Part shown: positions 1 to 54,599 of the stretch, in pieces
How positions within the stretch are numbered: position 1 is the stretch's first letter
Layout of the letters: each line of letters opens with the position of its first letter
Assembly: GCA_949710005.1 (NCBI GenBank)
Contig: OX453281.1
Coordinates: forward strand, 25,877,339-25,941,338
DNA length: 64,000 nucleotides
Source: Ricordea florida
Lineage: Eukaryota; Cnidaria; Anthozoa; Corallimorpharia; Ricordeidae
Direction: 5' to 3'
The notes under the pieces: model-generated
Told to the model about the DNA's origin: nothing
The model's database searches: none
Seen by the model: the letters and a program-made list of their open reading frames with translations, nothing else
Translations under genes and position numbers: made by a program

Positions 1-2
1 GA

Positions 3-1727
3 TACTATGAAGGGGCAAACTTTGATCTTTTGGCTAGGAAGGGAGTGTTCCCCTATGATTGGTTTGATGGCTTTGACAAGTTACAAGTGTCCAGTCTACC
101 ACCCAAGGATGAGTTCTATTCGATACTATACGACACTGACATATCGGATGACGAGTATCAACATGCTGGAAACGTGTGGGAGACCTTTGATATGAGAAGT
201 TTCAGGGATTACCATGACTTGTATCTCAAAACAGATGTGATCCTGTTGGCTGACGTCTTTGAGAATTTCAGAGGGGTTTGTATGAAGAACTATGGGTTGG
301 ATCCAGCATGGCATTATACTGCACCTGGACTGGCTTGGGATGCTACGCTGAAGATCACCAAGGTTGAGTTGGAGCTTTTGAGGGATCCCGATATGCTGAT
401 TATGGTGGAGAATGGTATCAGAGGTGGAATCTCAACGATCTCTACCAGGTATGGGAAGGCCAATAATCGATACATGAAGAACTATAATCCCAGGTTGCCT
501 ACAAAATTCATCACCTATTTAGATGCGAATGGACTCTATGGGTATGCAATGACCAAGGCGTTACCAACCCACGGTTTTGAGTGGATGAGTGATCAAGAGT
601 TGGTAGACTGGAGGAACCATCCATGCATATTGGAGGTGGACTTGGAGTACCCGTTGGAGTTACACGATCTTCACAATGATTATCCGTTGGCTCCAGAGAG
701 GTTGGATGTTGATGGGGTTGTTAAGTTGGTTCCCAATTTGAGATCCAAGAAGAAGTACATTCTACACCACGAAGCTTTGAAACAGTACTTGTCGCTGGGG
801 TTGAAGTTAACCAAGGTTCACAGAGGGATCAAGTTCGAGGAGTCGGAATGGATGAGGTCCTACATTGACTTGAACAATAGTTTGAGAGCCAGGGCTGAGA
901 ACGATTTCGAAAAGGACTTCTTCAAGTTGATGAACAACGCAGTGTTTGGCAAGACCATAGAGAACATTAGGAAGAGGGTGGATATACAGTTGGTCACTGA
1001 GGAGAAGAAAGCGCGTAAGTTGATTGTGAAGCCAAACTTCCATCACAGGAACATCTTTTGCAAGGATCTGACCGCCTTCCACATGAAGAGAACGAAATTG
1101 CTCTTTGATAAGCCCATTTACTTGGGACTGTCCATTCTGGATCTGAGCAAGACTGTCATGTACGATTTCCATTACAGGTACATAAAGCCCAAGTATGGGG
1201 AGAAGGCCAAGTTGCTGTTCACAGACACGGATTCTTTAGCTTATGTGATAGAGACGGAGGACTTTTACAGGGACATCAGTCCAGATGTGAGGGTTAAATT
1301 TGACACCAGCAATTACCCCACGGAGCATCCATCCGGGATTGAGACCGGAGTGAACAAAAAGGTCGGAGGGATGTTCAAAGATGAGGCTGGTGGTGAACAG
1401 ATCACGGAATTTGTGGGTCTGAGGGCTAAATTGTATGCTTTCAAGACGGACAAGGAGAAGGAAGTCAAGAAGTGTAAGGGTGTTAACAAGGCAGTGGTTA
1501 GCAAAAGCATAAGTTTCCAAGATTACAAGACTTGCCTTTTCAGTGGCCAATCCCAGAGACGGAAGATGAACACCATAAGGAGTCATAACCATGACATCTA
1601 CACTGAAACCATCAACAAGATAGCATTATCACGCGAGGACGATAAACGTGTGATAATGGAAGACGGGGTAAACACGTATGCACATGGTCATTTCAGAACG
1701 CTAGAAGGTGGTGATTCAGTGTCTTGA
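3..1727 (+). CDS. Protein-primed family B DNA polymerase, C-terminal part (pPolB)
   Basis: The frame is open from base 3, so the gene begins left of the window and only about 575 residues are present. It should replicate the element by protein priming. An exonuclease-type segment (DVILLADVFENFR, near 234-272) is followed by the three polymerase motifs: A with YLDANGLYGYAM (about 515-552), B with KLMNNAVFGKTIEN (about 925-966) and C with LFTDTDSLAY (about 1214-1243), which holds the catalytic D-x-D. The order and the wording DxNxLYG and FTDTDS fit the DNA_pol_B_2 family of Polintons. The last 40 bases overlap the 3' end of the integrase gene, which runs the other way. No frameshift or stop is seen in the visible part. 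Confidence 0.92.
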   Translation, partial: YYEGANFDLLARKGVFPYDWFDGFDKLQVSSLPPKDEFYSILYDTDISDDEYQHAGNVWETFDMRSFRDYHDLYLKTDVILLADVFENFRGVCMKNYGLDPAWHYTAPGLAWDATLKITKVELELLRDPDMLIMVENGIRGGISTISTRYGKANNRYMKNYNPRLPTKFITYLDANGLYGYAMTKALPTHGFEWMSDQELVDWRNHPCILEVDLEYPLELHDLHNDYPLAPERLDVDGVVKLVPNLRSKKKYILHHEALKQYLSLGLKLTKVHRGIKFEESEWMRSYIDLNNSLRARAENDFEKDFFKLMNNAVFGKTIENIRKRVDIQLVTEEKKARKLIVKPNFHHRNIFCKDLTAFHMKRTKLLFDKPIYLGLSILDLSKTVMYDFHYRYIKPKYGEKAKLLFTDTDSLAYVIETEDFYRDISPDVRVKFDTSNYPTEHPSGIETGVNKKVGGMFKDEAGGEQITEFVGLRAKLYAFKTDKEKEVKKCKGVNKAVVSKSISFQDYKTCLFSGQSQRRKMNTIRSHNHDIYTETINKIALSREDDKRVIMEDGVNTYAHGHFRTLEGGDSVS

Positions 1728-2677
1728 GGTACAAATTGAAGCTCTTCACGAACGAATCCCCGTTTTGGACCTCCACTCAAATAATACAAGACTGGTTGAC
1801 CCGGTTCGATTATGGTTCGAGCCAAATCATAGACTTCAAGACTCCATATGGGATCAGTAGCCCTTCGTTTGTCTCCACCTTCATCTTCACCGGGGGCATA
1901 AAGATACCTGACTTGAACATCTGGAGGTAACCTCTTCTCATTCAACCCCACAGGCCGCTTGTAGTCTGGAGTTTTGGTGTCAATCGAGTCCATTTTCAAA
2001 GCTTCGTTGGGCTCTTTACCAGTAATACGGGTGGTCTCACTGTTGAGGGTCTTCATGATGGCGGGCAATCTATTCACCCAAACCGTGGATCGGGTATCAC
2101 TAATCATCTCTTGAGCGTATTGATGGCTGAATAGCTTCTCACCGAGAGTCCTGTTGGCCCTCTCCACAAAAGCTTGAGCTCTATGATTCCCAGCTTCACT
2201 ACGCTGGATTGTGACTTGATGCTTTTTCATAAGAGTTGTTACATCACCCTTGAATTCTGTTCCCGGATCCACCATTAATGTTTGTGGCCACTTCAACTTA
2301 CGGGAATAAATCCGTTGAAAGGCATTGGCAACTTCACCACTCTCCTTTGAGGTCAATGGTTCGGCATCCTTGTATCTTGACGCGATATCAATCACGACTA
2401 AGGCATAGCGGTATGTTTTTCTTCTCACTGTATCGTGAGGAAGAAACAACAAGTCCGCCTGATGAATCTGGTTAGGCTTATTCACACTCCAATGTGGCCT
2501 GGGTATATACTTGGGGGCTGGGAGGTAAATTTGCCACAAGGCTTGCTTCTCCAACCACCCTTTGGCGACCTTTTCACTAACTTTGGCTGCTTTTGCCAAT
2601 TTGGGTATGGCTGAGTATCCTTTCCAGTATCCATCAGTGGAGTAATATAATCGATTTAAAACGTTAGAATCAGTCAT
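1688..2677 (-). CDS. Retrovirus-like (rve) integrase of the Polinton
   Basis: This 329-residue protein should insert the element into host DNA. Residues 1-75 resemble a small DNA-binding helix-turn-helix. The core follows: first Asp in HQADLLFLP, second in VDPGTEF, and Glu in AFVERANRTL, with 34 residues between the second Asp and the Glu (retroviral integrases have 35). A basic C-terminal part ending in a GGPKRGFVREEL-like stretch may be an SH3/chromo-like domain. The gene runs towards the polymerase and overlaps its end by 40 bases. Its start codon lies only 26 bases from the start of the capsid gene on the other strand, so that short gap must hold signals for both. All catalytic residues are present. 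Confidence 0.9.
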   Translation of the reverse strand: MTDSNVLNRLYYSTDGYWKGYSAIPKLAKAAKVSEKVAKGWLEKQALWQIYLPAPKYIPRPHWSVNKPNQIHQADLLFLPHDTVRRKTYRYALVVIDIASRYKDAEPLTSKESGEVANAFQRIYSRKLKWPQTLMVDPGTEFKGDVTTLMKKHQVTIQRSEAGNHRAQAFVERANRTLGEKLFSHQYAQEMISDTRSTVWVNRLPAIMKTLNSETTRITGKEPNEALKMDSIDTKTPDYKRPVGLNEKRLPPDVQVRYLYAPGEDEGGDKRRATDPIWSLEVYDLARTIIEPGQPVLYYLSGGPKRGFVREELQFVPQDTESPPSSVLK

Positions 2678-2703
2678 TTACAAAAAGAACATAAGCATTT
2701 AAA

Positions 2704-3939
2704 ATGGCTTCCATACCAAGCATTCTTGATGTCAATCGCGTTCCAAGGACTCGCGAAGGTTTGAAGGCTATGACGTCATTAAATAGGGTCACACTAAACC
2801 CATCGTCAGCCGAACCTGGTGAGACGCTGTACATTGAAATACCAAGATTGAGTGAAAATCTTGTGATTGTGCCTGGTAGCGTCTATATAACCTTTGATAT
2901 GGTTGTGACCGGGCACAAAGACAACACTCTTGTTAATAATTTGGGAAGGAATCTGATTTCACAGTATAAGGTTCTATTTGGTGGTGAAGTCGTCGAGGAT
3001 CTTGGTAGATTTGATTTGTTCAAGACTTACCACGACTTGTTTCTGACCACAGAAGACCGTGAGAATAGATTGAGACAGGGCATATCTGATGTTAACATAA
3101 GGAGGATTAGGACCAATGCGGGCAACAAAGATACATCAAAAGCAAGGGACAATACGTTAGCTGTGATTCACAACACTAGGTACGCCATTCCATTAGATCA
3201 CACAATCCTCAAAGATCATGGCGTATTTTACCCAATAGGATTACTCCATCCACTTAGATTTGAATTGACGTTGGCCAAAGTTTCTGATGTTGTGGTTTAT
3301 TCAAACCGTGAAGCACCGCCTGATTACAAATTAATAAACATGGAGATGGAGTACCAGTGCATATCAAGCAATCCTTTGGCAAGTCAGGCTGTTACGTCTT
3401 ACACAAATGGGAAAGGGTTCACGTATGAAAAGGTACTTCTTCACAAAACCTTCACAATCTCTGAGGCTAATGATTCTGTGATAAATCAGCATGTCAATGT
3501 GCCGAGGAGATCCATGACTGGCATACTATGTCTTTTCACCGCCCCTCATGCAGAAGGCCTCAGGGACTCTGAGATGTTTGCAAACCCAAAGATCACGTCA
3601 GTCAAGATTGACATAGATGGAGTGCCCAACCAAGTTTATTTGAAAGGTATGATGGCGACTGATTTGTGGCAATCCATCATTAAGCGAGTTGGCCTTAGTG
3701 ATTCAATCGATGAAGCTGATTTCTACACAGATAAGTTCGCTTTGTGGATTGACCTGAGGACTTATCCAGACAACGATATCCATGGAAGTGGTTTGTACAT
3801 TCACGCTACTCGTGATGGGGTGACTTTGGAAATTAAGAGAGAAAAGGTAGGCACTAGAGTTCTTACGTGTCATATGTTTGTTATTGCTGACGCGGTCATG
3901 AGCATTGTTAGTGGTGGTCTAAAGGAGATTAGATATTAA
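2704..3939 (+). CDS. Putative major capsid protein (double jelly-roll candidate)
   Basis: A 411-residue beta-rich protein without membrane segments. It belongs to a family I have seen repeatedly as an uncharacterised Polinton-linked protein in cnidarian genomes; typical wording includes SLNRVTLNPSSAEPGETL near the start, NNLGR around residue 80, and FYTDKFALWIDLRTYPDN and TCHMFVIAD near the end. The call as capsid protein is inference: length fits a hexon-like double jelly roll, and the gene directly precedes the packaging ATPase, a common Polinton pair. The start ATG is 26 bases from the divergent integrase start. A 9-bp-stem hairpin follows the stop (3953-3980). Alternative: another abundant virion protein. 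Confidence 0.6.
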   Translation: MASIPSILDVNRVPRTREGLKAMTSLNRVTLNPSSAEPGETLYIEIPRLSENLVIVPGSVYITFDMVVTGHKDNTLVNNLGRNLISQYKVLFGGEVVEDLGRFDLFKTYHDLFLTTEDRENRLRQGISDVNIRRIRTNAGNKDTSKARDNTLAVIHNTRYAIPLDHTILKDHGVFYPIGLLHPLRFELTLAKVSDVVVYSNREAPPDYKLINMEMEYQCISSNPLASQAVTSYTNGKGFTYEKVLLHKTFTISEANDSVINQHVNVPRRSMTGILCLFTAPHAEGLRDSEMFANPKITSVKIDIDGVPNQVYLKGMMATDLWQSIIKRVGLSDSIDEADFYTDKFALWIDLRTYPDNDIHGSGLYIHATRDGVTLEIKREKVGTRVLTCHMFVIADAVMSIVSGGLKEIRY

Positions 3940-3952
3940 GCCGCTGTATGGT

Positions 3953-3980
3953 TTTCTTCTCACGATGTCACGAGAAGAAA
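3953..3980 (+). terminator. Hairpin after the putative capsid gene
   Basis: A perfect 9-bp stem (TTTCTTCTC at 3953-3961, GAGAAGAAA at 3972-3980) with a 10-base loop lies 13 bases after the capsid stop codon and 31 bases before the ATPase start. A role in 3' end formation is inferred from position and similarity to hairpins at other gene ends of this element. Confidence 0.4.
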
Positions 3981-4011
3981 CATCAATCTAAAGGGATTCA
4001 TGTAGTGAGTA

Positions 4012-4650
4012 ATGATGAACGAACTCAGAGATCTGATCCCATTCAATTGCATCATCACTGGTCCCACGAATTGTGGAAAGACCCAATACATAGTGGAGCA
4101 GCTTCGAGGTCACTATAGGCAAGTGTTTGATTATATTGTGTTGATTTGTCCAACATATGCCCACAACAAGACGTATAGAGGCTTTGCCAAAGGGGAAAAA
4201 CGATTCTTTGTACTGTCGCCAGATGCCAGTGATCATGACGAAATCAACAATTTGTTGATGGACTGTGAATCGTTCTTCTCGGGTACCAATACGCTCCTAA
4301 TTTTGGACGACTGTGCCGTTTCCAAGGATCTGAAGAATAGGTCCAACAAATTCATCGGTTTGGCCTTCTCTGGGAGACACGTAGGGATATCAGTGTGGGT
4401 TCTCACTCAGCAACTGACATCCATAGCCAAACCATTCCGTGAAAATGTAGCTTGTGTGGTCTCATTTCACAATCCATCTCAAACGGCGATGAAGATGCTT
4501 TTCGAGGAGTATGGCGGGGACCTGGATGCTGAAACGTGGAAGAAACTCAAGAAGCACCTTATGAATGAAAAGTATGCCAGGCTATGCTTCTCCCTCAGAC
4601 ATCCATTCCAAAACTATTTAGAAATACCGGCTCTAACGGCACAATCATGA
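4012..4650 (+). CDS. Genome-packaging ATPase, A32/FtsK-HerA-like
   Basis: A 212-residue P-loop ATPase expected to pump the element's DNA into capsids. Walker A is GPTNCGKT at residues 17-24 and Walker B is TLLILDD at 94-100. A Q-rich LTQQLTS segment (131-137) sits where a sensor strand is expected, and a GRHVGISVW strand precedes it. Size and motif spacing fit the short packaging ATPases of Polintons and related viruses. Two ATGs in tandem open the frame. The stop overlaps the start of the next gene by ATGA, suggesting co-expression. It lies directly after the putative capsid gene. Confidence 0.87.
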   Translation: MMNELRDLIPFNCIITGPTNCGKTQYIVEQLRGHYRQVFDYIVLICPTYAHNKTYRGFAKGEKRFFVLSPDASDHDEINNLLMDCESFFSGTNTLLILDDCAVSKDLKNRSNKFIGLAFSGRHVGISVWVLTQQLTSIAKPFRENVACVVSFHNPSQTAMKMLFEEYGGDLDAETWKKLKKHLMNEKYARLCFSLRHPFQNYLEIPALTAQS

Positions 4651-5195
4651 CAACGCCTGAAGAAATCATGAATGGTCAAACTGCAGTGGCGGAACAATCG
4701 CCGCCAACCATGAACGTCGATGATGTGAAAGCTAAAAGAGAAGAGCTGGCAATACTAACTTCTCTCGGCTCTAGCAAGGAGTATCTTGGCGTTCAGATGG
4801 CTCTAGGTGATGTCCACAGATTGTCGGATAGGGACGTAGAGAAGTACTACAAGAGGTACAAGATGGTGTCAGGTAAGAATGTGGCTGAAGGACTATTTGA
4901 TCCTCCTCTACATCTATTGGCCAGACTAGTCAACTGGTCTCTTAGTAGTTACGGTGGAATAGATGATCCAGATGCTTTGGTAAAGGATTGGAAGAACAAC
5001 CAGTTGATCAAGCAGTCGCTGTCAGAATATTCTGGTTCAATAGTAGTACATGGTGGTGTGATTGTTACGTTATTGATAATAGCCATTACCGCTCTCAAGC
5101 ATTTCAAACTAAAAGAGCCTAGTCCCCCAGCTACATTGTACGACATGGCTAACGCGGATGAAGATTGGGGTGAGGGCGTTGACACTGTTCGGTGA
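4647..5195 (+). CDS. Polinton protein of unknown function with one membrane segment
   Basis: The frame is open further upstream, but the ATG at 4647 overlaps the ATPase stop (ATGA) and is the likely start, giving 182 residues. Residues 1-130 are hydrophilic with a helical stretch around 25-80. Residues 131-150 (SIVVHGGVIVTLLIIAITAL) form a clear single transmembrane helix followed by a short charged tail. I do not recognise a family. Position between the ATPase and a row of other small membrane proteins suggests a virion or membrane-associated role, which is inference. Confidence 0.72.
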   Translation: MTTPEEIMNGQTAVAEQSPPTMNVDDVKAKREELAILTSLGSSKEYLGVQMALGDVHRLSDRDVEKYYKRYKMVSGKNVAEGLFDPPLHLLARLVNWSLSSYGGIDDPDALVKDWKNNQLIKQSLSEYSGSIVVHGGVIVTLLIIAITALKHFKLKEPSPPATLYDMANADEDWGEGVDTVR

Positions 5196-5257
5196 AAAAA
5201 TTGAAAACGATCTTGGAAGGGTTCGGTGTGAAGGCATACTCGAAAGAGATCGAAAAC

Positions 5258-6127
5258 ATGTCTCAGAGAACAAACTCAACTTCCTCAAATGGTTCAATGA
5301 CGTCACTGAAAACTCTTTTTGTACCCATCGACGCGGATGACTTCGATTGGGACAGTATTGAGATAGAAGCTCCAGTGAAGAAAGGCAACTACTCATTTTC
5401 AAGTCTTATTGTTCGGGATGGTGATGGTGAAGCCTGCAATCTAGCTTTCCAATTGGCTGACCAAAACATATTTGGCCTCAAATGGAACAATGGCCCTGAG
5501 AACAAAAAGCCTCAGTCTGGTATCAAATTCACCTATTTGCTGCGTGACGATGAGACTCGAGACAGGTTTGACGTCATCATAGACAAAGTAGCTAAAGACA
5601 TTGAGAGATTCTACGCTGATGAGACCATTCGCAAGAACATGCCCAAATTGAGTAAAATTCAGCTCGACACTATGAAGAAAGGGGACACAATTGATTTGAT
5701 CAAACCATCGTATACCACAAATGAAAACGGTAATACGTGTGTATACCCTGAATTCAACACAAGCGGACGTGGTGATAAACTAAAAAACTACACAACATTC
5801 ATAGGCCGAAAGAAGAGTGACAGATGGAGTGATTACATCCAGACGGATGCAGACGATGATCGTACCAAGGCATGCGCAACAGTTTCATTGAGAATCAGAG
5901 GGATAACATTTGGCGCCTGTGGAACTGGGATGAGTTGCATTGCCAATGTAAAATATGTGGTTCAAGCAATCAAACTAAGCAAACCCATGGAAGAAGAAAG
6001 GGTTCAAGAAGACAATGTTTTTGCACACATGGGTTTTGAAGAAGACTCTGAGGAAGAAGAGGAGGAAGTTGTGGAAGAACAGCCCCCAACTCCACCAAGA
6101 ATGTTGAAGGGTAAGAAGAAGAAATAA
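5258..6127 (+). CDS. Soluble Polinton protein with acidic tail, possible ssDNA-binding protein
   Basis: The open frame runs from 5192 through a GTG codon; the first ATG is at 5258, giving 289 residues. The body (about 15-245) has alternating strands and no membrane segment. A C-terminal Glu/Asp run (EEDSEEEEEEVVEE) is followed by a proline-rich piece and a basic KGKKKK end. A beta-rich body plus an acidic tail is common in single-stranded DNA-binding proteins, and a protein-primed replicon would need one, but no specific motif proves this. Related unnamed proteins seem to occur in other cnidarian Polintons (from memory). Alternative: a virion core protein. Confidence 0.72.
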   Translation: MSQRTNSTSSNGSMTSLKTLFVPIDADDFDWDSIEIEAPVKKGNYSFSSLIVRDGDGEACNLAFQLADQNIFGLKWNNGPENKKPQSGIKFTYLLRDDETRDRFDVIIDKVAKDIERFYADETIRKNMPKLSKIQLDTMKKGDTIDLIKPSYTTNENGNTCVYPEFNTSGRGDKLKNYTTFIGRKKSDRWSDYIQTDADDDRTKACATVSLRIRGITFGACGTGMSCIANVKYVVQAIKLSKPMEEERVQEDNVFAHMGFEEDSEEEEEEVVEEQPPTPPRMLKGKKKK

Positions 6128-6167
6128 GCAGCTATCCAAATAGGGGGTTGGGTGGGATCTGACAGTT

Positions 6168-6190
6168 TCCTAGTATACAACTTACTAGGA
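6168..6190 (+). terminator. Hairpin in the gap after the acidic-tail gene
   Basis: An 8-bp perfect stem (TCCTAGTA at 6168-6175, TACTAGGA at 6183-6190) with a 7-base loop lies in the 101-base gap between two genes. A 3' end or processing role is inferred only from position. Confidence 0.35.
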
Positions 6191-6228
6191 GACTTAAAGC
6201 TTACAGTAGATTACCTTACAACGACAAT

Positions 6229-6621
6229 ATGTCTGAAGAAACAGGTCAGGTTGAGCAAATCACTAGAGAGCCTTCTGTCAAAACCAAGGTCAAAGACCCC
6301 AAGAGAGTTCAGGCTGGTAGAACGTTATCGGAAAAGAACAAGAGGGCTAGAGAGGCTTTGAAACGTGAAGAGGAAAGGGAGAAGAAAGAGAGCGAAAAGG
6401 AAGAGGATAAGGGTAATTCTGGTGGTGGGAGAGGTGGTTGGAAGCCGTATCAAACTATCTTTTTAGCCATAGGTGCAATTGGCCTCGCCGCCTACAGCCT
6501 ATGGACCAACTATCGAGACAGGATACCTGACTTGCATTTTCCATCGAAACCCAAAGTCACAGAAAGTCAGCCCGTGGCCAGCAAAGCAGAGGAAACCGAT
6601 TTAAAAGATGATGTGTTATAA
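6229..6621 (+). CDS. Small Polinton protein: charged N-terminus plus one membrane helix
   Basis: 130 residues. Residues 20-62 are very rich in Lys, Glu and Arg and likely helical; a short glycine-rich linker (63-70) leads to a hydrophobic helix at about 75-92 (TIFLAIGAIGLAAYSLW). The C-terminal 35 residues are polar. The next gene starts seven bases after the stop. I do not recognise the family; the layout suggests a single-pass membrane protein with a basic/acidic coiled domain, possibly contacting DNA or capsid. Confidence 0.68.
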   Translation: MSEETGQVEQITREPSVKTKVKDPKRVQAGRTLSEKNKRAREALKREEEREKKESEKEEDKGNSGGGRGGWKPYQTIFLAIGAIGLAAYSLWTNYRDRIPDLHFPSKPKVTESQPVASKAEETDLKDDVL

Positions 6622-6627
6622 TTCAAA

Positions 6628-6849
6628 ATGACTGAGAATAAGCTCATAAAGACAGTTACTGGCTCTGCATTGCTCGTTGGATTGTCAGCTGGGATGGGCT
6701 GGCTTGGCAAAAAGGCTCTTCGGGAGTCGTTCATCGGTGACCCATCGACCAGTATCATGAACTATGCCAAATGGGTAGGTGTGCTGACTATAGCCATGTA
6801 TGTCAAAACCTATTTAGAGGATCAGAAGATACTACCCACAGGTGATTGA
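6628..6849 (+). CDS. 73-residue Polinton protein with two hydrophobic segments
   Basis: The ATG follows AAAA seven bases after the previous stop. Two hydrophobic stretches (about 10-25, glycine rich, and 45-60) suggest a small two-pass membrane protein. Its stop (6847-6849) lies two bases before the next ATG at 6852. No family recognised. It is part of a run of small membrane-segment genes from 4647 to 7659. Confidence 0.6.
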   Translation: MTENKLIKTVTGSALLVGLSAGMGWLGKKALRESFIGDPSTSIMNYAKWVGVLTIAMYVKTYLEDQKILPTGD

Positions 6850-6851
6850 AC

Positions 6852-7238
6852 ATGCCTTTGAGTTTCACTGAAGCAATTAAAGATGCCCAAACTGATTACA
6901 TTATTGATCTTATGAGACACATAAGACAATCATACGTTGATGCTTTGCATGAAACTGAGTATCTCTCTGTTGTGAGAAATTCAGAGGTTGAAATCGACCC
7001 CATGCCTAGTAACAGAGAGCTTATCGAATGGTATTTCAAACTTGGAAATAGACAATTTCATCATGCCACGGAGCCTAGACTGGTAAGCTATCTTTTGAGA
7101 GATATGGATAAGGAACTTGATGAGACCAACAAAAAGTCAGAACAACCACGACTAGGCCCACACCCACTGGTGTCATTTACGCTTGGAGTGTTGACATCGA
7201 TCGCGTTATACACAGGCTCGAAATTGTTTAAGAAGTAG
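6852..7238 (+). CDS. Polinton protein of unknown function with C-terminal membrane anchor
   Basis: The open frame starts at a TTG at 6846, but ATG 6852 is preferred (128 residues). Residues 1-95 are mixed helical and charged. Residues about 103-122 (HPLVSFTLGVLTSIALYTGS) form a hydrophobic helix followed by KLFKK, a typical tail anchor. No catalytic motif is visible. It sits two bases after the preceding gene and 16 bases before the next. Confidence 0.65.
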   Translation: MPLSFTEAIKDAQTDYIIDLMRHIRQSYVDALHETEYLSVVRNSEVEIDPMPSNRELIEWYFKLGNRQFHHATEPRLVSYLLRDMDKELDETNKKSEQPRLGPHPLVSFTLGVLTSIALYTGSKLFKK

Positions 7239-7254
7239 GACAACAAATGGATAA

Positions 7255-7659
7255 ATGGCGACTATAGCAATTATGCTTGGAGGGGCAGTCCTCAACGCAA
7301 CAGCCTTCATTGGTGGAAACTATTTAGCAAAAGTCATTAGCGGCTCGTCTTCGGCCGATCTCCAACTTGAAAGGGAGAGGCATGACAAAGCCATGGAGAA
7401 GTACCAGAAAGACTATGCTGCTTATCAAGAGAGACGAACGGCTTATATTGACTTTGAGAACCGTAGGAAGGGTGATGAGAATCAAGCCTCTGAGAACATA
7501 TCAAAGACGGACGAAGCGCTAAGATTGTACAATCAAATGGGCAATCCCCCCAAATTCTCAGACTATTACCGACCCAACTCAGATCAAAAAACCGGGGAAA
7601 TGGTCTACGTTTCTGGTGGGATGTTAGCCTTGGGATACATTGCCAGCAAGTGGATATGA
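7255..7659 (+). CDS. Polinton protein with hydrophobic ends and a charged coiled middle
   Basis: 134 residues. A hydrophobic N-terminal helix (about 3-25), a long charged helical middle rich in Lys, Glu, Arg and Tyr (34-100), and a second hydrophobic helix at the very C-terminus (115-134). This hairpin-like layout could span or bridge a membrane. The stop codon overlaps the ATG of the next gene (7656). No family recognised. Confidence 0.65.
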   Translation: MATIAIMLGGAVLNATAFIGGNYLAKVISGSSSADLQLERERHDKAMEKYQKDYAAYQERRTAYIDFENRRKGDENQASENISKTDEALRLYNQMGNPPKFSDYYRPNSDQKTGEMVYVSGGMLALGYIASKWI

Positions 7660-7895
7660 TGACTCCCCATGAGTATGTCAAGTTGGTGGGGACCAGAGCT
7701 GAACAATTGCAGATGGGTAGTAAACCAATGATAGACTGGCCATTTGATTTCAACCCTATAGCCATTGCCAAGAGTGAACTCAAACAGCGCGTTTTGCCCC
7801 TTGCTATAATTAGAAAGATCCCGGACTGCAATTCAAAGACTGGTTTCCGCGACGAGATATGGGACCCAAACGACATGCATATACGAGACTTTTGA
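7656..7895 (+). CDS. 79-residue Polinton protein of unknown function
   Basis: Two ATGs in a row (7656, 7659) overlap the preceding stop; a GTG at 7650 is in frame but less likely. The product is soluble, without membrane segments or Cys pairs, and includes PMIDWPFDFNP and IWDPNDMHIRDF stretches. I do not recognise it. Tight overlap with its neighbour supports it as a real gene. Confidence 0.55.
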   Translation: MMTPHEYVKLVGTRAEQLQMGSKPMIDWPFDFNPIAIAKSELKQRVLPLAIIRKIPDCNSKTGFRDEIWDPNDMHIRDF

Positions 7896-7910
7896 AATCA
7901 ATTTAGAAGC

Positions 7911-7936
7911 TGCCATATTCAACTTCAAATATGGCA
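7911..7936 (+). promoter_or_regulatory. Hairpin enclosing the start codon of the next gene
   Basis: A perfect 9-bp stem, TGCCATATT (7911-7919) and AATATGGCA (7928-7936), with an 8-base loop. The ATG of the following gene (7931) lies inside the right arm. In RNA this could affect start access; in DNA it is a boundary palindrome. Function is inference. Confidence 0.4.
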
Positions 7937-8875
7937 ACTGCTTATGATGATCCTGATTTGGATCCGACTACACTAAATGAGGCAGGTGATGGTGATGATG
8001 GGGATGATACACTTTACTTGAGCCCAATCACAAAGACATCCACCACTCGTCCAATTGAACCTGATTATGAAGAGGAAGAAACCTCGTTTGGTGGTGTTGA
8101 TGAAACTCGGCCCTTAATGATAGAAGAGATGGAAATAGAACAAGATGAGGCCTGGGCCAAGATTAGATCAAGATTCCCCAAAGTTGATACGTCCAAGTTT
8201 ACAGCCAAACTGAATGAATTCAAACAAGTAGTCGTCAAATTGCTTAGGAAAGGATCAAAACCTTATGTGTTGTTCAAAGGTGATGATGAATTAAATGATG
8301 GATTGCCAGACACCATCAAAAACAATCTAGGCCCAAGAGCAGAAGAAGTTGTGGAAGCCAATGATGGTGTGATCGCTGAGAAAAAGGGATTGCTCACCAA
8401 AATGAAGGAGACGCTAAGATTCCAAAGAGATAAGCCGCTGAAGACCCCAGAAGAAGAAAGTAACATAGAGACTCTGGAGAGGGAAATTGGTGAGCGGGAA
8501 GAGGAGATAGCCAATTTGGAGAGTGAGAATGAAGAGATACAGGAACGAATGTCATTGCGGGATCGTGTAAAGGCCATCTTCAAGAAATACGGATTCACAG
8601 TCTTTGCTGTCATGAGTGCCGTTGGAGTGGTCATTGGTGTCATAGTCTCCAACCTCTCCAAAGGGCTATCGAAATTAGGCAAGGGCGTTGGTGATGGACT
8701 AAAAAACCTTGGGAAGAAACTTGGCGAATTGCTGCCTGGGATGGTGGGCGCAATTGTAAGCTTTCTGTTCAAGACTGCTGGAGAGGTCGTCTCATTCCTG
8801 GGGAAACATGCTTGGCTGTTGATAATGGCAGTTGTGCTTTACTTCATAGAAGAGTTAAAAAGGAAACGTACATGA
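7931..8875 (+). CDS. Putative membrane-active virion protein with coiled coil and hydrophobic C-terminus
   Basis: 314 residues. Residues 1-75 are acidic and disordered; 175-208 form a Glu-rich coiled coil. From 222 to the end come three hydrophobic or amphipathic stretches (222-241, 269-281, 285-306) joined by a glycine/lysine repeat around LSKGLSKLGKGVGDGLKNLG, which would be strongly amphipathic. This C-terminal part is conserved in many uncharacterised cnidarian Polinton proteins that I remember. The layout resembles membrane-lytic minor capsid proteins such as adenovirus protein VI, but that is analogy only. The stop overlaps the next start (ATGA at 8872). Confidence 0.7.
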   Translation: MATAYDDPDLDPTTLNEAGDGDDGDDTLYLSPITKTSTTRPIEPDYEEEETSFGGVDETRPLMIEEMEIEQDEAWAKIRSRFPKVDTSKFTAKLNEFKQVVVKLLRKGSKPYVLFKGDDELNDGLPDTIKNNLGPRAEEVVEANDGVIAEKKGLLTKMKETLRFQRDKPLKTPEEESNIETLEREIGEREEEIANLESENEEIQERMSLRDRVKAIFKKYGFTVFAVMSAVGVVIGVIVSNLSKGLSKLGKGVGDGLKNLGKKLGELLPGMVGAIVSFLFKTAGEVVSFLGKHAWLLIMAVVLYFIEELKRKRT

Positions 8876-9060
8876 ATCAAATGAAGAGCTATTGTGTCAA
8901 AGAGAAAAAGCTGACTGATTGTGTGCCTGGTAGTGAAACCTTTGCCAAAACAGCCAAAGGAAGGCTGATGATGAAGTGTAAATGTTCCAGCTGTGGCATC
9001 ATCAAAACTCGATTCCTCTCAGATGCCGACTATAGAAGTTTAAAGATGGCGAAGAAGTAA
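8872..9060 (+). CDS. 62-residue zinc-ribbon-like Polinton protein (DUF5679-like)
   Basis: The frame extends upstream, but ATG 8872 overlaps the previous stop and gives the conserved start. The product begins near MKSYCVKEKK and has a second cluster CKCSSCGIIKTRF. Small Polinton proteins of this type usually read YCVKCRKKT ... CxxCGxxKxRF with two Cys pairs. Here the second Cys of the first pair is Glu, so only Cys in YCV, CKC and SSC remain; zinc binding may be altered. In related elements it is a likely basic virion core or nucleic-acid-binding protein (inference). Confidence 0.7.
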   Translation: MNQMKSYCVKEKKLTDCVPGSETFAKTAKGRLMMKCKCSSCGIIKTRFLSDADYRSLKMAKK

Positions 9061-9069
9061 TCAAACAAC

Positions 9070-9702
9070 ATGTTGAGCATTACTATGTACGAGTCTGAAA
9101 CCAGAGTGTATTTGGATCCCCCATTGGAAGAGGTTCGGGAGATCCAACTCCTCGACTGCATTGTACCCAAACGATTGGTGAACTTCAAGGATCGACAGGG
9201 CTTTCTCAAGGAGGATAATCGACCCATCATAATAATCCCGCCCGGTACATACTCTCTACGTGGCATACACGCAATCCTTCTGAACGATACGGATAACGCC
9301 AAGCTGTCGATCGTTGAGACTGACACCGTTGATTACCTGTACTCCAACAAGACGTTCAACATTAAACTCACAAGAGGTCTCCAAGTTGCTCTTGGGGTGC
9401 CTGAAACCGTAACCCCTGGAAAGCTGTACCCCATAAACATACAGATTAAGGAACCGCTGAGACTTTTGTGTAGTCTAGTGGACAATAAGTCGTCATATGT
9501 GAATGAGACTAAGTATGGCGAACTCGTGAAACTCTCGCCTTCCCACCTCCTTGCCAACATACCATCACAGGATTACCCGGCCATGCCGGTCCAAAACCAT
9601 GAGAGTCTCCTAACCCACTTCGACTTAAGCATCCTCGACATTGGATGGAAGAAACTTGATCTGAAGGGTTCCCCCATCACATTCAGTTTACGATTCAGAT
9701 AA
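9070..9702 (+). CDS. Putative minor capsid (penton-like) protein
   Basis: 210 residues, beta rich, without membrane segments. The order of features matches the Polinton penton family as I know it: an N-terminal strand with a bulky-acidic-pro-pro pattern (YLDPPLEE), a short ILDC/IVPKRL strand, an IIIIPPGTYSLRGIH segment near residue 55, a LGVP stretch near 115, and a final strand ITFSLRFR after a single-jelly-roll body. It would close the five-fold vertices of the capsid. It starts nine bases after the zinc-ribbon gene. The assignment rests on pattern memory, not on alignment. Confidence 0.62.
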   Translation: MLSITMYESETRVYLDPPLEEVREIQLLDCIVPKRLVNFKDRQGFLKEDNRPIIIIPPGTYSLRGIHAILLNDTDNAKLSIVETDTVDYLYSNKTFNIKLTRGLQVALGVPETVTPGKLYPINIQIKEPLRLLCSLVDNKSSYVNETKYGELVKLSPSHLLANIPSQDYPAMPVQNHESLLTHFDLSILDIGWKKLDLKGSPITFSLRFR

Positions 9703-9733
9703 CATCTTAAAAGTAAGTGATCCTCAGTCCAAA

Positions 9734-10336
9734 ATGGATGCATATAAGCCGATTTACCCTAACTTGGAAGCCACTGCACCTCCTCCCATTGATGGACCAT
9801 CATTCCGGCTTCAACAATGTTGTGATGCCTTGAACAAGCTAAAGTCTGAATTAAACCACTACGAGACAGTACTCAAAAAATACAACCGATCCAAGGGTAC
9901 ACTCATGGATGTAAGCTCGACCTGTGGTATACTGTCTTGCGTCTTGGCGGCTGGTGGATTGGGCACAACGCTTAGTGGTGTCGGAATCGTCGCATCTGTA
10001 CCATTGGGCGTGGTGAGTGGTGTATTTGTATGCGCATCCATAGCATGTCAACAAATATCCAAGAGACTGTCCCAGAAAGCCGTGAAGCATCAAAACACCA
10101 TCACACTGGCCAGATCCAAGATAAACACCATTGAAGACCTGGTTTCCAAAGCCCTTCGTGACAATACGATCTCTGACTCAGAATTCTCGTTGATCATGGA
10201 CGAACTCAAGAAATTCGAAAAGCTTAAGGCTGAGATACGGGCTAAGGCTCAAAAAAATGTGAGTGGAGAGGACCCATTGGTGCTGAGGCAGAGAGTACGC
10301 GAAGAAATCCTCAAAGAACTAAAAGGAGGACCATAA
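9734..10336 (+). CDS. Polinton-linked protein of unknown function with glycine-rich hydrophobic core
   Basis: 200 residues: a proline-rich start (PNLEATAPPP), a helix with KLKSELNHYETVLKKY, a long hydrophobic glycine/valine segment (about 60-105, with LAAGGLGTTLSGVGIV), then a helical C-terminal half with ISDSEFSLIMDELKKF. I recognise this arrangement from many uncharacterised cnidarian proteins, but no function is known to me. The two-helix membrane hairpin suggests membrane insertion. It follows the penton candidate by 31 bases. Confidence 0.68.
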   Translation: MDAYKPIYPNLEATAPPPIDGPSFRLQQCCDALNKLKSELNHYETVLKKYNRSKGTLMDVSSTCGILSCVLAAGGLGTTLSGVGIVASVPLGVVSGVFVCASIACQQISKRLSQKAVKHQNTITLARSKINTIEDLVSKALRDNTISDSEFSLIMDELKKFEKLKAEIRAKAQKNVSGEDPLVLRQRVREEILKELKGGP

Positions 10337-10403
10337 CTATCATATACGAGCAAAACAAATACTAGTCCAAATAGACTTAAAAGTAATATTAATAAGAGTA
10401 CAC

Positions 10404-10583
10404 ATGGATAACCGAGAAGTCAATGAAGCTCCAAACTATATAACTGAATTGGATTGTGAAAGATTAATAAATTCTAAACTGTATTATACAAGAAAAGAGG
10501 TTGAAGAATTGTCTACAACAACCTCATACATAAAGGCTGCAGTAGTATTATATTTAGCGTACTTGATCTATGACCAGATATAG
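10404..10583 (+). CDS. 59-residue single-pass membrane protein candidate
   Basis: A short frame starting at ATG 10404, ending with TAG at 10583. The N-terminal 42 residues are polar (MDNREVNEAPNYITELD at the start), and the last 16 (IKAAVVLYLAYLIYDQI region) are hydrophobic, giving a tail-anchored layout like other small genes in this element. It fills the gap between two clear genes in the same direction. Low complexity of evidence because it is short. Confidence 0.45.
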   Translation: MDNREVNEAPNYITELDCERLINSKLYYTRKEVEELSTTTSYIKAAVVLYLAYLIYDQI

Positions 10584-10632
10584 ATTAATGGCTTAAACGT
10601 TTGAACTCTTCTACCCAAATTCTGGATAGAAG

Positions 10633-12051
10633 ATGGTCTTACTCGATGACTTCAGAAATAGGTATCCAAAGGCTGACCTTGACCAATTCAAATTTGTGAA
10701 CGATCAATATGGGGGGTACGTTAGATGGAAAGATAACAGTATGACAGTCATGTCCTATGATGACCCCACTGGCAAGACATGGACTGATGGGATGCAACCA
10801 AGTTTGAAATCGCGACTCTGGGTTGATCTTGGACTGGCCGCATTGAACTCATTCCCGCCAAGCTTAACCATGACCAAACGATACTACCCGATACCCGCCG
10901 TTGACTTTGACAGCCCCACCAGTAACACCACAAGTATGCTGACATCACTGGACATATACGTGTCCAATACGAAGAAATTCACCGCCAAGATGCGTAATGT
11001 TTTCACCTCCCAAGTTGTAACTTTCAAGTTTGGTAAGCAAAGTCGAAAGTGGTTGAACGCCCCCGACATGAACTACTGGCCACAACAGCTGAACTTTGCA
11101 GTGTGGTGTGCGACCTCTGGCTGTGGGATAAGTCCCTTCGAGAGCCTCAACTACCCCAAAGTCGTGAGTAGCTTCATCAAGTTTCATGTATATTTCACCA
11201 TAAGACGGATATTGTATGAATTGAATCTTCCACTGCCTGATGAGCAACCCTTTGTAATCAACAATAACCCTTATAGTAAGGTTGCATATCAACGATTATG
11301 CGCTGAATTTGGCATCTCAAACAACTCTGACTTCAGATGGAAAGGTGGACGAAACGGGGGTTTGGGTGACATATTCATCGATTATGGGGCTGGATACCAT
11401 GGAGTGGGTGGGGGATACCAAAACGTCCATATGGTAAGGAATTACGACAAAGAGGCTGATCAATGGCCTGGTGAAGGTGGCAAATTCGCTGATGATGGGG
11501 GTAAGAAGGAAAAAGGTGACCTCGTCTCATTCATTCGTAATGATGACTTTGCTGATTACAAGTATGCTTGGTTCATACCAACGAGTGGCTATGGACTCAC
11601 TAAAGCTGGACTTGGCAGGTTGAATCGATCTGCTGAAGCCTTTGTTTACTGTGTGTTGGGGGCGCAAGTCAACACTAGAAACTCGATTGTGGGCACTGGT
11701 GGTGGAGCGATCGAGACCCAACAAGAATTCTTGGCCCTGTTTGAGAGTAGTGTGATCGAGAACGACATTTCGAGTTCGATCCAAAGGTACCAACTGGCGA
11801 CTCAAGAGGCTAAATTAAGGCTTGATTTGGCCATTGCTCCTGGAGTGTGGTTGATGCCTAGTAACATGATCATAAACACAGAGAGTGTGGTCGGGTATAA
11901 CAACAACCTCATGAAGGCCACTGATGGGATGAAATTTGGTGTCAACACAAACATAAACCTGGAGACTAAGACTGTGGGGATCAACCATAATCTGGGATCA
12001 TCAAAGGTCAAGTTGCCACATGGACTTAACAGGGGTATTCATGCAACTTGA
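10633..12051 (+). CDS. 472-residue Polinton-linked protein of unknown function
   Basis: The longest complete gene of the element. No membrane segment or known catalytic motif. Recognisable conserved stretches are MNYWPQQLNFAVWCATSGCG (residues about 140-160), YFTIRRILYEL (190-200), RSAEAFVYCVLGAQVNTRNS (337-356) and PGVWLMPSNMIINTESVVGYN (about 413-433). I have seen this family many times as an uncharacterised protein in cnidarian genomes near other Polinton genes. Its abundance and size fit a structural or fibre-like protein, but that is inference. The stop codon lies inside a 20-bp hairpin shared with the convergent next gene. Confidence 0.78.
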   Translation: MVLLDDFRNRYPKADLDQFKFVNDQYGGYVRWKDNSMTVMSYDDPTGKTWTDGMQPSLKSRLWVDLGLAALNSFPPSLTMTKRYYPIPAVDFDSPTSNTTSMLTSLDIYVSNTKKFTAKMRNVFTSQVVTFKFGKQSRKWLNAPDMNYWPQQLNFAVWCATSGCGISPFESLNYPKVVSSFIKFHVYFTIRRILYELNLPLPDEQPFVINNNPYSKVAYQRLCAEFGISNNSDFRWKGGRNGGLGDIFIDYGAGYHGVGGGYQNVHMVRNYDKEADQWPGEGGKFADDGGKKEKGDLVSFIRNDDFADYKYAWFIPTSGYGLTKAGLGRLNRSAEAFVYCVLGAQVNTRNSIVGTGGGAIETQQEFLALFESSVIENDISSSIQRYQLATQEAKLRLDLAIAPGVWLMPSNMIINTESVVGYNNNLMKATDGMKFGVNTNINLETKTVGINHNLGSSKVKLPHGLNRGIHAT

Positions 12052-12069
12052 ATACCCCTGTTAAGTCCA
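12021..12069. terminator. 20-bp perfect hairpin containing the stop codons of two convergent genes
   Basis: Left arm 12021-12040 is the exact reverse complement of right arm 12050-12069, with a 9-base loop. The TGA of the + strand gene (12049-12051) and the TAA of the - strand gene (12061-12063) both fall in it. Outside the stem, CAAGTTG (about 12009-12015) and CAACTTG (about 12076-12082) extend the symmetry with an internal mismatch. It most likely forms the 3' end signal for both transcripts (inference). Confidence 0.7.
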
Positions 12070-12492
12070 GACACACAACTTGCCTTTCAACGCATCGTCA
12101 ATTACATAACGTTGAAATTTGCCATAATCATCACTAGCAACCAAGTCATCACTAACATTCAAACGGATATTAACCGTGATGATTTCGTACTCGTCAGATC
12201 CATAATTGGCTACACAACGTTCATGAAAATCGCTACAAAGACCTTCAATGTTAAAAACGTCCTCCAACCTTCTTTTGGTTAATACTCTAAACTTGTAGCC
12301 CAAATAGTCAAACGAAACGACATCTTTGAAAAGTTCACAAATGTCGTTGGGCGCAAAATGTTGAAAGAAACCAACCATTTCGTCCCTCATCTTGGTAATG
12401 AAATCATCATTACGTAGCTTGTTGCAGTTGTAAAGAGCCAACTCCATATAATTGAAAGCCGGGTTGAAATCAATTTGCAGGTTTCTTTGCAT
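12061..12492 (-). CDS. Rightmost Polinton gene, unknown function
   Basis: First ATG at 12492 (MQRNLQIDF), giving 143 residues; the frame is open a little further to a TTG at 12531. The protein is soluble and mixed alpha/beta with three or four Cys, including HERCVANYGSD near residue 90. It runs convergent to the 472-residue gene, nine bases apart, sharing the hairpin at their ends. I do not recognise the family. It may be an early or regulatory gene transcribed inward from the right end of the element, as its position near the terminus would suggest. Confidence 0.62.
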   Translation of the reverse strand: MQRNLQIDFNPAFNYMELALYNCNKLRNDDFITKMRDEMVGFFQHFAPNDICELFKDVVSFDYLGYKFRVLTKRRLEDVFNIEGLCSDFHERCVANYGSDEYEIITVNIRLNVSDDLVASDDYGKFQRYVIDDALKGKLCVWT

Positions 12493-14001
12493 TTCGTTTG
12501 CGTATGCCAATCGGTGCAACCCTCGACCCAAAATCCCACTTTAACAAATCGGCCCCCACCCCACCCGCCAAAGGACATCGACGATCCAAACGAAAAAATC
12601 GACACTCGACGGAAAAAGTCATCGATTGAAAATCAACCAAGTCAAACTCGACTCGACCCAATTAATTATGCACAAACTTTTTTGGCCACACCCAAAACCA
12701 CGAATTCACAAAAAAATCGATCGAAAATGAAATTGCGCCAGAACGCCCATAATACAACTACTAGTGTTCAAAATGTTGAGACATTGTAATGACGCATACT
12801 CGCTGTGGATAAGAGTACAGACAAAACCATGATTTGTTAATTTGCCAGCTCCCAGGAGTTTCTGAATCAGGGCACTGAAAGGTTCTTGTACCAGCTACAA
12901 CTATAGTCAGTGTGGAAAATGGCTGTCCTTTTCAGGGGGTGCTCCCTATCTCCCTGGGTTGCTGTTACAGGGATCTCAGTTAGGAAAGGGTATTTAAACG
13001 CACTTAAAAAAATTAGGACTCAAAAATCTTGGGAATACAATAGTAATTTCATATAAGCTTTTAGCTTCATTAGAACTTCCTTGCCACGTTTATTTATATC
13101 TAACTATTAATATCAAGCTATGTTGTAATCTGTTTTAACTTTGTTGTGTTTGTGGGTGACTAAATAACTGAAAGTTTAATTTGATTGTACGGTTTGTCAA
13201 TATTTGGAAAGCCCACAAGTAAGCTAATCGGATTTCAGGTTTTCAAGTGGAACTTCATATCCATTCGTGGGATATTTATTATATAGGTGAGAGTACTGGG
13301 CCGGAATTACGGTACACCGCTCGTAAAATTCATACGAAACCACATCCGGGACCGTAGTGGCGTATTTTCCATATCCTCACTTGTGATGATATCGATGACG
13401 TGATTTCCCGCCTTGCACGATTCAGTTTGTGTACAAAGCTGCCAAACGAACGTCTTAATGTGCTTTTGTCTATATAATAGTTTTTGAAGAAAATCGCACA
13501 TAAGCTCAGAAGATATGAATTTTACGTTCTCGTGGCAAGAAAAATATCTCACTCATTTGCTGCGCTTACTCGTGAGATATTGCTCTTGCCACTCGAACAT
13601 AGGACTTTCATAAATGGCAGTCGATTTATTATTCTTTTGTATGTATTTTAATCAGACCCACTAGACTCAGTTAGAACAAAAATTATACTGGATTGTGCAC
13701 ATCCTAGCGAGGCCAGTAAGGCTCATTACCATGAAAAATTCACATCTCTCCACCGTGTAAAATCCTCTATATATGTATCTGTTGTAGTTCAGTTTTATCC
13801 TTGGTTCAAATTTTATTTTCCTTTGTTTCAAACTCATTATCATATATTACCATACCAGGAAACAAAGGAAAATAAAATTTGAACGAAGGAAAAACTATAA
13901 ACAAATAACAAAAAAACTATGACATATATGTCATTGCAACTGAGTAAAAATTTATGACGTAGGATCATTTTTCTTTTCTTGTTTATTACAATGTCCAATA
14001 G
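12493..14001 (+). other. Right flank of the Polinton and DHX9 intron; no gene seen
   Basis: 12493-12790 is G-poor and A/C-rich with no clear frame, probably the subterminal part of the element. From about 12800 the sequence is AT-rich and intron-like. 13307-13560 is a dispersed repeat also found inverted at 47930-48160. 13798-13890 is a fold-back with near-perfect 32-base arms. A helicase motif I exon was looked for and not found. Confidence 0.6.
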
Positions 14002-34058: not shown

Positions 34059-34169
34059 TCAGAAACGAAGATGAGGCTTCGTCTTTGTCATGAATCTGTT
34101 AAAAGAAATATAACAAAGCATGTTATAAAAGTGGATAGGTTAGTCTGTTACTATGTACTTCTTAGGACG

Positions 34170-34655
34170 TAAGATAATGATAACGATAACGACAGTTATG
34201 ATGATGACGATAATAATAACGATTACAATAATAACAATAATGATAACAACAACAACAATAATAATAACAATAATAACAACAATAACAACAATAATAATAA
34301 CAACAATAACAACAATAATAAGAACAACAATAACAACAACAACAATAAGAAGAACAACAATAACAACAACAACAATAATAACAACAACAACAGCAACAAC
34401 AATAATAATAACAATAACAACAACAATAATAAGAACAACAACAATAACAATAACAACAGCAAAAACAATAATAATAATAATAATAACAACAATAATAACA
34501 ATAATAAGAACAACAACAACAACAACAATAACAACAATAACAACAACAATAATAACAACAACAATAACAACAACAATAATAACAACAACAACAGCAACAA
34601 TAATAATAATGATAACAACAACAATAATAATAACAACGATTACGATAATGATAAT
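34170..34655. repeat. Imperfect AAC/AAT microsatellite, about 480 bp
   Basis: Almost pure trinucleotide AAC/AAT mixture with rare ACG, ACT and AAG units, between the CDC73 last exon and exon 19 (copy 1). It generates long meaningless Ile/Val, Leu and Thr/Ile frames on both strands. Duplicate at 43390-43875 with the same length. Confidence 0.95.
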
Positions 34656-35514
34656 TTTTGATAATAATAGAAGGGGGTTAGTTTCCAAAGAGGCCGGTGC
34701 TGCATGGATAGAAAATTGAGACACCAACAAATAACTGAGCTTATCAAGCGAGTTTATAACGTAAACGGTACCACCGTATGATCAAATAGAAGCTGACGGT
34801 TCAAACGTCGGTCTTTCGTCAGAGCGACTACACACAATATGTCTTATAGATAAACCAAAACCTCTATACCACTGCAAAGGAGTGCATAGAGCGTAACAGT
34901 AGGACCCAAGCAATGCAAAATCATAGCAATCACGTAAGTACTTCCAAAGTGAACTGAAAAAAACCTTCAAAAGCAACAACGTACTGTCAAATGACAACAC
35001 GGAAATACAAACTGAATGCGGCAAACTGCCGTTGGTACGTACTTATCGAGGATTTCCCAGAACTTGATGATGGACACTTTATCCAGATGTCGTTTATTGC
35101 GGCTGATCTGAAATTATATACAATGTAAAAGAAGAGCACAGTTGACTGAAAATTCAAATCATTTGTTTTGAGAGCAAACGCATGTGTTAACTGAAAAAAA
35201 TGTGTTTTAGCAAGATCGCTACTTCTGGTTCTTGACAAAAATCTCGCAGTTGCCTCTACATTTGCTTTGATTGTTATTTCAGTGGAGGAATTTTTAGCAC
35301 TAAATCTGCTTACAGTAAGGATTTGTACATCCCACTTTTGTACATTAGGGTCCGTTTTCATTTCATCGTACTTGAGGTAGAAACCCTTGGCTGCAAAGCA
35401 ACAACAAAATCAATTCAAAGACTGCAACATTTGGTTACGTTATCAGCAGGTGAAAAGGTGGTTTTGACGGATTCATTTGCGGATTACACCATGCACCATA
35501 AGGATTGTCTGGAA

Positions 35515-36795: not shown

Positions 36796-37261
36796 TACGT
36801 ACTCTTTGTGAAAATGTCGACAGGTGAACCATCAGGCAGAAGCCAGGGCCAACCTTTGAACTGCCAGGCCGGGCCTTGAACGAATACCGCCACTACACGG
36901 TTCCTAGAAGGCAACAAAGAAAAGCAATTTATATAAAAAAGTAGGAAAGTTTGCACCATTCAATAAGTGAGAGATCAACACAGTTATGCACGCAACTTAC
37001 GCAGTTGCGAAGATAAGACCTGAAAACATTCAGGGTTGAACCGGATTCGACGTCACGACCTTGTGACACCTGTGCAATGGTTTGACCAAGTGAACTATCA
37101 ATCCAACTGGGAACTGGTCATTTGCGAGTTCGTAATATGTTTGTAAAAGTAAAGGATTACTCAGTGTCAACCAATCAGAGAGGTGAATTCCTAAAGTCGT
37201 CACCACGTAGTAATATATCGAACGGGATAAACATTGACCTAACTTTAGACCACATGCTTTT

Positions 37262-37280
37262 GTATTATTATTACTATTAC

Positions 37281-37332
<52 letters not shown>

Positions 37333-38474: not shown

Positions 38475-38477
<3 letters not shown>

Positions 38478-46500: not shown

Positions 46501-46552
<52 letters not shown>

Positions 46553-47630: not shown

Positions 47631-47697
<67 letters not shown>

Positions 47698-54440: not shown

Positions 54441-54485
<45 letters not shown>

Positions 54486-54554: not shown

Positions 54555-54599
<45 letters not shown>

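Follow-up and report, generated by a model that had tools for sequence, protein, structure and literature searches.

A Polinton-type element in Ricordea florida: evidence for a recent family, a damaged copy and capsid-only relatives

A 64,000-nucleotide stretch of the Ricordea florida genome (C10:25877339-25941338, hereafter the window) very probably holds, as its first 12.8 kb, the right part of a 15,952-bp Polinton (Maverick)-type animal element, a damaged copy from a recent family that also has capsid-only relatives. The full element lies at C10:25874149-25890100, with its ends read in the genome assembly (537.8 Mb in 48 contigs, the genome searched throughout). An initial annotation of the window had placed a Polinton-like element at 1..12790; an element of that type is indeed there, but its right end falls at 12762 and a further 3,190 bp lie to the left of the window.

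The element and its family

Terminal inverted repeats of 273 bp each, with 0 mismatches between the left and right copies, bound the element and carry the 5′-AGTAGT ends expected of Polintons/Mavericks. The initial annotation had staked its reading on finding such repeats after leftward extension, and they were found. The 6-bp target duplication it had anticipated was tested and dropped, a 5-bp duplication (AGTGT) being present instead. Open frames run in a nearly unbroken series over window positions 1-12051, and about 90% of positions 1-12489 is coding. The genes comprise a putative polymerase pPolB, an integrase, a double-jelly-roll major capsid protein (MCP), a packaging ATPase and about ten unnamed genes (Table 1); the left flank (L009) supplies the other inverted repeat, a 218-amino-acid (aa) gene with Cys/His repeats and pPolB up to codon 719. 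The rve integrase and ATPase, identified by profiles, and the MCP, identified by profile and structural model, likewise belong to the Polinton/Maverick hallmark set. The listed frames proved open, the pPolB, DDE and Walker motifs are present, and several genes are matched by no profile, in agreement with the annotation's account of open frames, retained catalytic residues and many unnamed genes.

The family is abundant. Capsid matches at 94-100% identity number at least 101, a lower bound because these 101 were scored from 6121 loose candidates; three of the 101 contain a stop. A degenerate terminal pattern (up to 2 mismatches) occurred 825 times in forward and 838 times in reverse orientation (reversed control, 0 and 0), and a stricter pattern gave 22 and 19 ends (control, 2 and 2), which form 18 pairs including that of the window. 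The other 17 pairs all have a perfect 5-bp duplication (17/17) and none a 6-bp match (0/17); their repeats, aligned across 151-319 bp, share 95-100% identity, and in six pairs they show no difference. With the window and six further copies counted as well, every long copy whose two ends were read (24 of 24) has the 5-bp duplication; of the ten copies opened first, two gave no reading, one repeat being truncated and one displaced. Many family copies are recent insertions, and the annotation's proposal of a recent, virus-like insertion with undescribed genes is supported.

Core genes are under purifying selection between copies, to judge from 16 copies comprising the eight best (window included) and the eight lowest of the 101 listed capsid matches. 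The ratio of nonsynonymous to synonymous polymorphism (pN/pS) was 0.07 for the pPolB end, 0.11 for the integrase, 0.12 for the MCP, 0.08 for the ATPase and 0.44 for the 203-aa gene, the capsid value being biased downward by drawing the copies from the 101 best capsid matches. This bias is one of several points that weigh against reading the family as recently spread, virus-like Polintons. Of the 16 copies, 9 are free of lesions in the pPolB C-terminal part, integrase, MCP and ATPase, and 7 have one or more, located in pPolB, integrase or ATPase; when the 203-aa gene, which aligns poorly in places, is also counted, 3 of 16 are lesion-free. The name pPolB has as its sole basis the motifs DANGLYG, NNAVFG and DTDS in the frame at 3..1727, which we take to be polymerase motifs, and no polymerase profile matched. 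The penton (single jelly-roll) protein is a candidate chosen by position and size, and no Ulp1/adenain protease appeared among the 14 window ORFs (open reading frames) and the 9 from the left flank, variable slot or right arm that were scanned with Pfam, a scan that a diverged protease could escape. The duplication is 5 bp rather than the 6 bp used for vertebrate Mavericks in the cited excerpt of PMC8097293, four of the 38 end pairs described below span only 13.3-15.6 kb, and the virus-like life cycle is here read from genes. The selection values and lesions are those expected of elements that are functional while they spread and decay once inserted.

Based on this gene content, full-length members would replicate as virus-like DNA elements through a protein-primed polymerase acting at the inverted repeats; the integrase would insert them with a 5-bp stagger, yielding the 5-bp duplication, and the capsid gene set would provide for capsid assembly. 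The window copy is a damaged member that lost about 2 kb of its right arm, and the short capsid-only elements would most likely depend on full-length copies for the polymerase and integrase that mobilise them. Particle formation by animal Polintons is a long-standing question, and a family whose insertions are so numerous and recent, with exact ends and capsid genes that are conserved, offers a good place to seek such particles. In the cited excerpt of PMC8097293 they are described as so far unobserved.

Ends of this kind also occur in other arrangements. Five same-orientation terminal-motif ends, 9.5-10.2 kb apart and two of them opened, form a tandem array at G000:C3:3907133-3946213. A 34.1-kb pair with identical 264-bp repeats (G000:C10:6551248-6585330), about twice the usual length, is probably a nested insertion. 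A 5.2-kb element (L078, C1:20411445-20416756) has the same kind of ends and a 5-bp duplication; it holds a pPolB piece, a WHPxRF-family gene and a further frame resembling a captured THAP-type host gene.

Deletion in the right arm

The initial annotation had called the element intact, a claim refuted for the window copy, which is a deletion derivative. Its gene at 10633-12051 has 472 codons and lacks the C-terminal membrane tail of other copies. Right ends were opened in ten other copies; one is displaced, probably through an insertion, and nine could be read. Every one of these nine carries the tail, and in eight the gene reads as 511-514 aa; in alignment A2 (44 sequences), the 21 of 43 aligned homologues that were shown all carry a tail with a hydrophobic segment. 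In each of the nine, a 122-127-aa gene follows the tail gene and one to three WHPxRF-family genes (with WHPxRFxxWC-like ends) are present; seven also have a Cys-repeat ORF of at least 90 aa beyond the 122-127-aa gene. The tail, the 122-127-aa SLOG-type gene and the accessory genes are gone from the window copy, about 2 kb of right arm in all, and relative to copy L019 2,199 bp are absent between the two flanks of the joint.

The joint itself is palindromic (Table 1). When window positions 11960-12120 were used as a query, the window alone spanned the joint in full among at least 41 matches (40 of 444 candidates were scored, fewer than all copies). One other match is the palindrome itself and 39 are partial, 16 covering only query positions 1-63 and 23 only 86-161; the four copies in which both halves were listed have them 1.7-2.3 kb apart. 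The window element measures 15,952 bp versus 17.1-19.3 kb in 16 of 17 same-subtype pairs, the 17th being the 34.1-kb pair. Because pairs of about 13-15.6 kb also occur, short length alone is no proof of damage; the palindromic joint and the genes missing relative to other copies nevertheless indicate that about 2 kb was lost, or was dropped in assembly. The loss is apparently a private event of the window copy.

An assembly artefact at the hairpin, with a longer true locus, would also leave a palindromic joint, and local assembly errors may occur here, since an N gap adjoins a 9.2-kb duplicate elsewhere in the window. Both flanks of the joint are otherwise element sequence, however, and ordinary deletions with a short inverted insertion also produce palindromic joints, so that we regard an artefact as improbable. 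Less credible still, and already contradicted, is an intact live provirus whose short right arm is a natural variant: the open frames, the identical end repeats and the four other pairs of about 13-15.6 kb (whole elements unopened) speak for it, but nine of nine readable copies hold the tail, SLOG-like and WHPxRF-family genes that it lacks, its joint is palindromic and spanned in no other listed match, and it is shorter than all 17 others paired by the same terminal subtype. The intact reading was dropped on two grounds, the tail missing relative to both homologues and copies and the joint spanned by the window alone among the matches listed.

Elsewhere in the window, a stretch of about 9.2 kb within 29782-48000 is repeated near-identically (29782.. 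and 39001.., spacing 9,219-9,220), the two copies being separated by a run of N near 38.8-39.0 kb; this looks like an assembly duplication. Positions 54410-55425 hold about nine near-identical 114-bp tandem units that read as an open frame of repeated peptides.

Short elements with a capsid gene

The 100 listed mismatch-free ends (C1 to the start of C4) formed 38 pairs: 24 of 16-19.5 kb, five longer, four of 13-15.6 kb, one of 5.2 kb and four of 2.37-2.46 kb. The last four are each made up of inverted repeats plus a single capsid ORF (411-412 codons), and all except L075 are flanked by a 5-bp duplication. Opening 20 of the 24 unpaired ends and searching them with four proteins revealed two more short elements, in both cases through a capsid match close to the end. 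L098 measures 2,408 bp and has the duplication GCTTT and a complete ORF; L082 measures 2,157 bp, its ORF is cut to 379 codons, its right terminal motif has one mismatch and its poly-T flanks are uninformative. All six, at 2.2-2.5 kb, carry a capsid gene and ends of the full-length kind without a polymerase or integrase of their own; the capsid is the sole ORF with a match, unmatched ORFs of 70-141 aa being listed as well. At 1.9-2.7 kb inward from another unpaired end (L097, C3:24445348-24448208) there is a distant, fragmented capsid-like match of about 29-39% identity, which may represent older capsid lineages.

Four of the short-element capsids were compared with the window MCP and are 62-64% identical to it; for five full-length elements that belong to other terminal types, the matched capsid segments share 57-70% identity with the short-element capsids. 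In an MCP tree with 143 tips, of which 6 come from short elements, 17 from full-length copies and 120 from the database, the six short ones form one clade (support 0.976) whose neighbours are unsettled (parent support 0.07). The branches of this clade are about 0.4 synonymous changes per site apart (uncorrected). Within the five close elements pN/pS was 0.37-1.06, with 2.2 for one near-identical pair, and between these five and L082 it was 0.23-0.27; in a neutral simulation, an ORF stayed stop-free after 64 changes with a 14% chance. These ratios and the simulation therefore suggest long-term constraint on the short-element capsid and leave recent constraint unsupported, selection among the five close elements looking weak.

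We give roughly even chances to the capsid-only elements being short deletion derivatives of the ordinary sort, their capsid gene carried along passively and heading to decay. The ratios among the five close elements, the shortened ORF of L082 and the sizeable neutral chance of a stop-free frame all agree with this. It accounts less readily for the complete 411-412-codon ORF in all of the first four, which were chosen by ends and length only, for a complete ORF in one of the two picked up afterwards through a capsid match close to an end, for the well-supported clade that excludes all 17 full-length and all 120 database MCPs, or for the ratio of 0.23-0.27 between its two branches. Tentatively, the short elements, of which only six were found, may instead constitute a self-sustaining Polinton satellite lineage with inverted repeats on which polymerase and integrase of the helper would act, and whose own capsid would serve self-packaging or interference with the helper capsid. 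If they are satellites, the distance of about 0.4 synonymous changes between clade branches would imply that they have long coexisted with several lineages of full-length Polintons. In four short elements the repeats look like repeats from different full-length copies, with best identities of 78-96% across part of their length; this is consistent with trans mobilisation and too distant to name a helper. True satellites of this type would represent a novel class of subviral element in which integrated DNA carries a capsid gene only, and would point to a role of capsids in Polinton spread. Titles and abstract openings yielded no literature on non-autonomous Polintons with capsid genes, which leaves their absence from print unproven.

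Gene complement and comparison with known systems

Table 1. Features of the element, in window coordinates unless L009 is given.
Feature	Position	Strand	Basis or remark
pPolB N-terminal part, 719 aa	L009 7842-9998 (left of window)		in register with window frame; read up to the codon spanning the edge
pPolB C-terminal part, 574 aa	3..1727	+	frames in register across window edge; polymerase-like motifs; no Pfam/NCBIfam match
rve-type integrase, 329 aa	1688..2677	-	Pfam rve E 1e-7
MCP, 411 aa	2704..3939	+	Pfam Capsid_N E 2.7e-5
A32-type packaging ATPase, 212 aa	4012..4650	+	Pfam Pox_A32 E 4.9e-11
Unnamed protein, 203 aa, fast evolving	4584..5195	+	pN/pS 0.44
Unnamed protein, 289 aa, acidic C-terminus	5258..6127	+	7 homologues only; no profile above cut-off
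Unnamed ORF, 130 aa	6229..6621	+	open frame; profile scan without name
Unnamed ORF, 128 aa	6852..7238	+	open frame; profile scan without name
Unnamed ORF, 134 aa	7255..7659	+	homologues in two other sampled elements
Unnamed protein, 314 aa	7931..8875	+	coiled-coil-like and hydrophobic stretches, read by eye
Candidate penton (minor capsid), 210 aa	9070..9702	+	position and size only; no profile match
Unnamed protein, 200 aa	9734..10336	+	hydrophobic stretch, read by eye
Unnamed virion-type gene, 472 aa, shortened	10633..12051	+	1149 homologues; alignment; other copies
Deletion joint	12021..12069	.	21-bp palindrome arms 12021-12041 and 12049-12069, 7-nt loop
Right-arm gene, 143 aa	12061..12492	-	homologous 143-aa ORF in copy L019; last residues altered by joint
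Right terminal inverted repeat	12490..12762	.	273 bp, identical to left repeat at L009 6810-7082
Target site duplication, 5 bp	12763..12767	.	AGTGT on both flanks

The AlphaFold2 model of the MCP (mean predicted local distance difference test score, pLDDT, 72) is nearest in the PDB to the MCP of PBCV-1 (Foldseek E 8e-14), followed by a Singapore grouper iridovirus capsid protein; the model of the 472-aa protein reached a pLDDT of 55. Against NCBIfam, the integrase matched an IS481 transposase model at E 7.5e-13, under that model's cut-off. A role in single-stranded DNA binding for the 289-aa protein is a guess. In copy L019 the 143-aa gene adjoins the terminal repeat, as in the window copy. 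Profile searches gave no match for pPolB, the penton candidate or the 143-aa gene, and PDB sequence searches with pPolB, the MCP and an MCP profile returned nothing meaningful. PHROGs named only transposase- and terminase-like matches plus two weak ones near the limit, and viral contigs queried with the MCP, two alignments and pPolB contained no confirmed relatives. The database capsid cluster P0095, 55% identical to the window MCP, has 4,980 member sequences, and another genome may hold far larger numbers.

The 122-127-aa gene, scanned in copy L010 only, matches the YspA-type SLOG family (Pfam E 5.3e-10); PADLOC returned ShosA (E 4e-6) and PsyrA (E 7e-5), and a PDB sequence search gave weak DprA-like matches only (best E 0.037). 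In the cited excerpt of PMC9503650, a 2022 survey, viral SLOG domains are reported from tailed phages and large DNA viruses only and are proposed to bind or cut a host nucleotide signal. By analogy, the protein here may do the same, which is a guess, and its gene would widen the range of the viral domain beyond the groups in that excerpt. A variable slot precedes the 511-aa gene (L011 254-727, L015 698-988, L019 reverse strand), in which some copies hold a 157-aa protein similar in its first part to the beginning of the 511-aa gene and others a 94-96-aa protein.

We class the element, from its gene content and ends, as a Polinton-type element, a 5-bp variant with no detected protease, and not as an adintovirus. 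That it is an adintovirus in the strict sense, with an Alpha/Beta hexon and a chromodomain integrase, appears doubtful. The L009 part of pPolB holds ECFKWA and NHYCWIKN before the polymerase, which we take to be vOTU-like Cys and His motifs and which would favour that assignment; a Pfam scan of the left-flank frames gave no OTU match. A Stylophora coral adintovirus, reportedly described in Starrett 2021, points the same way. It is named in the cited excerpt of PMC11071308. On the other side, the integrase here has no chromodomain in Pfam (only rve, plus DUF6140 below cut-off), the solved structures nearest to the MCP are capsid proteins of PBCV-1 and an iridovirus, and in BFVD an adintovirus capsid entry comes no higher than 11th, with 10% identity. 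The definition in the excerpt of PMC11071296 calls for a hexon recognisable by reciprocal BLASTp to Alpha/Beta references.

With Polintons/Mavericks the element shares a putative pPolB (by motifs), an rve integrase, a double-jelly-roll MCP, an A32-type ATPase and long inverted repeats, and with vertebrate Mavericks the terminal (AGT)2 motif reported in the excerpt of PMC8097293. It differs in its 5-bp rather than 6-bp duplication, in the protease, found here in no scanned ORF and identified in 74% of Polintons according to the excerpt of PMC4028283, in the truncation of the window copy and in a variable right arm with SLOG-type, Cys-repeat and WHPxRF-family genes. The Stylophora coral adintovirus, compared by its description in the excerpt of PMC11071308, shares, by motif reading, a pPolB with vOTU-like residues and perhaps a related host; its terminal protein is a separate gene, whereas the N-terminal half of pPolB here is one long frame.

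The capsid-only elements are integrated DNA with inverted repeats and target duplications, known from sequence alone. Satellite viruses that encode only their own capsid exist, satellite tobacco necrosis virus among them, and the elements resemble these in being short, in having one capsid gene and in that they would borrow the replication of a relative, although such RNA satellites are unrelated to them.

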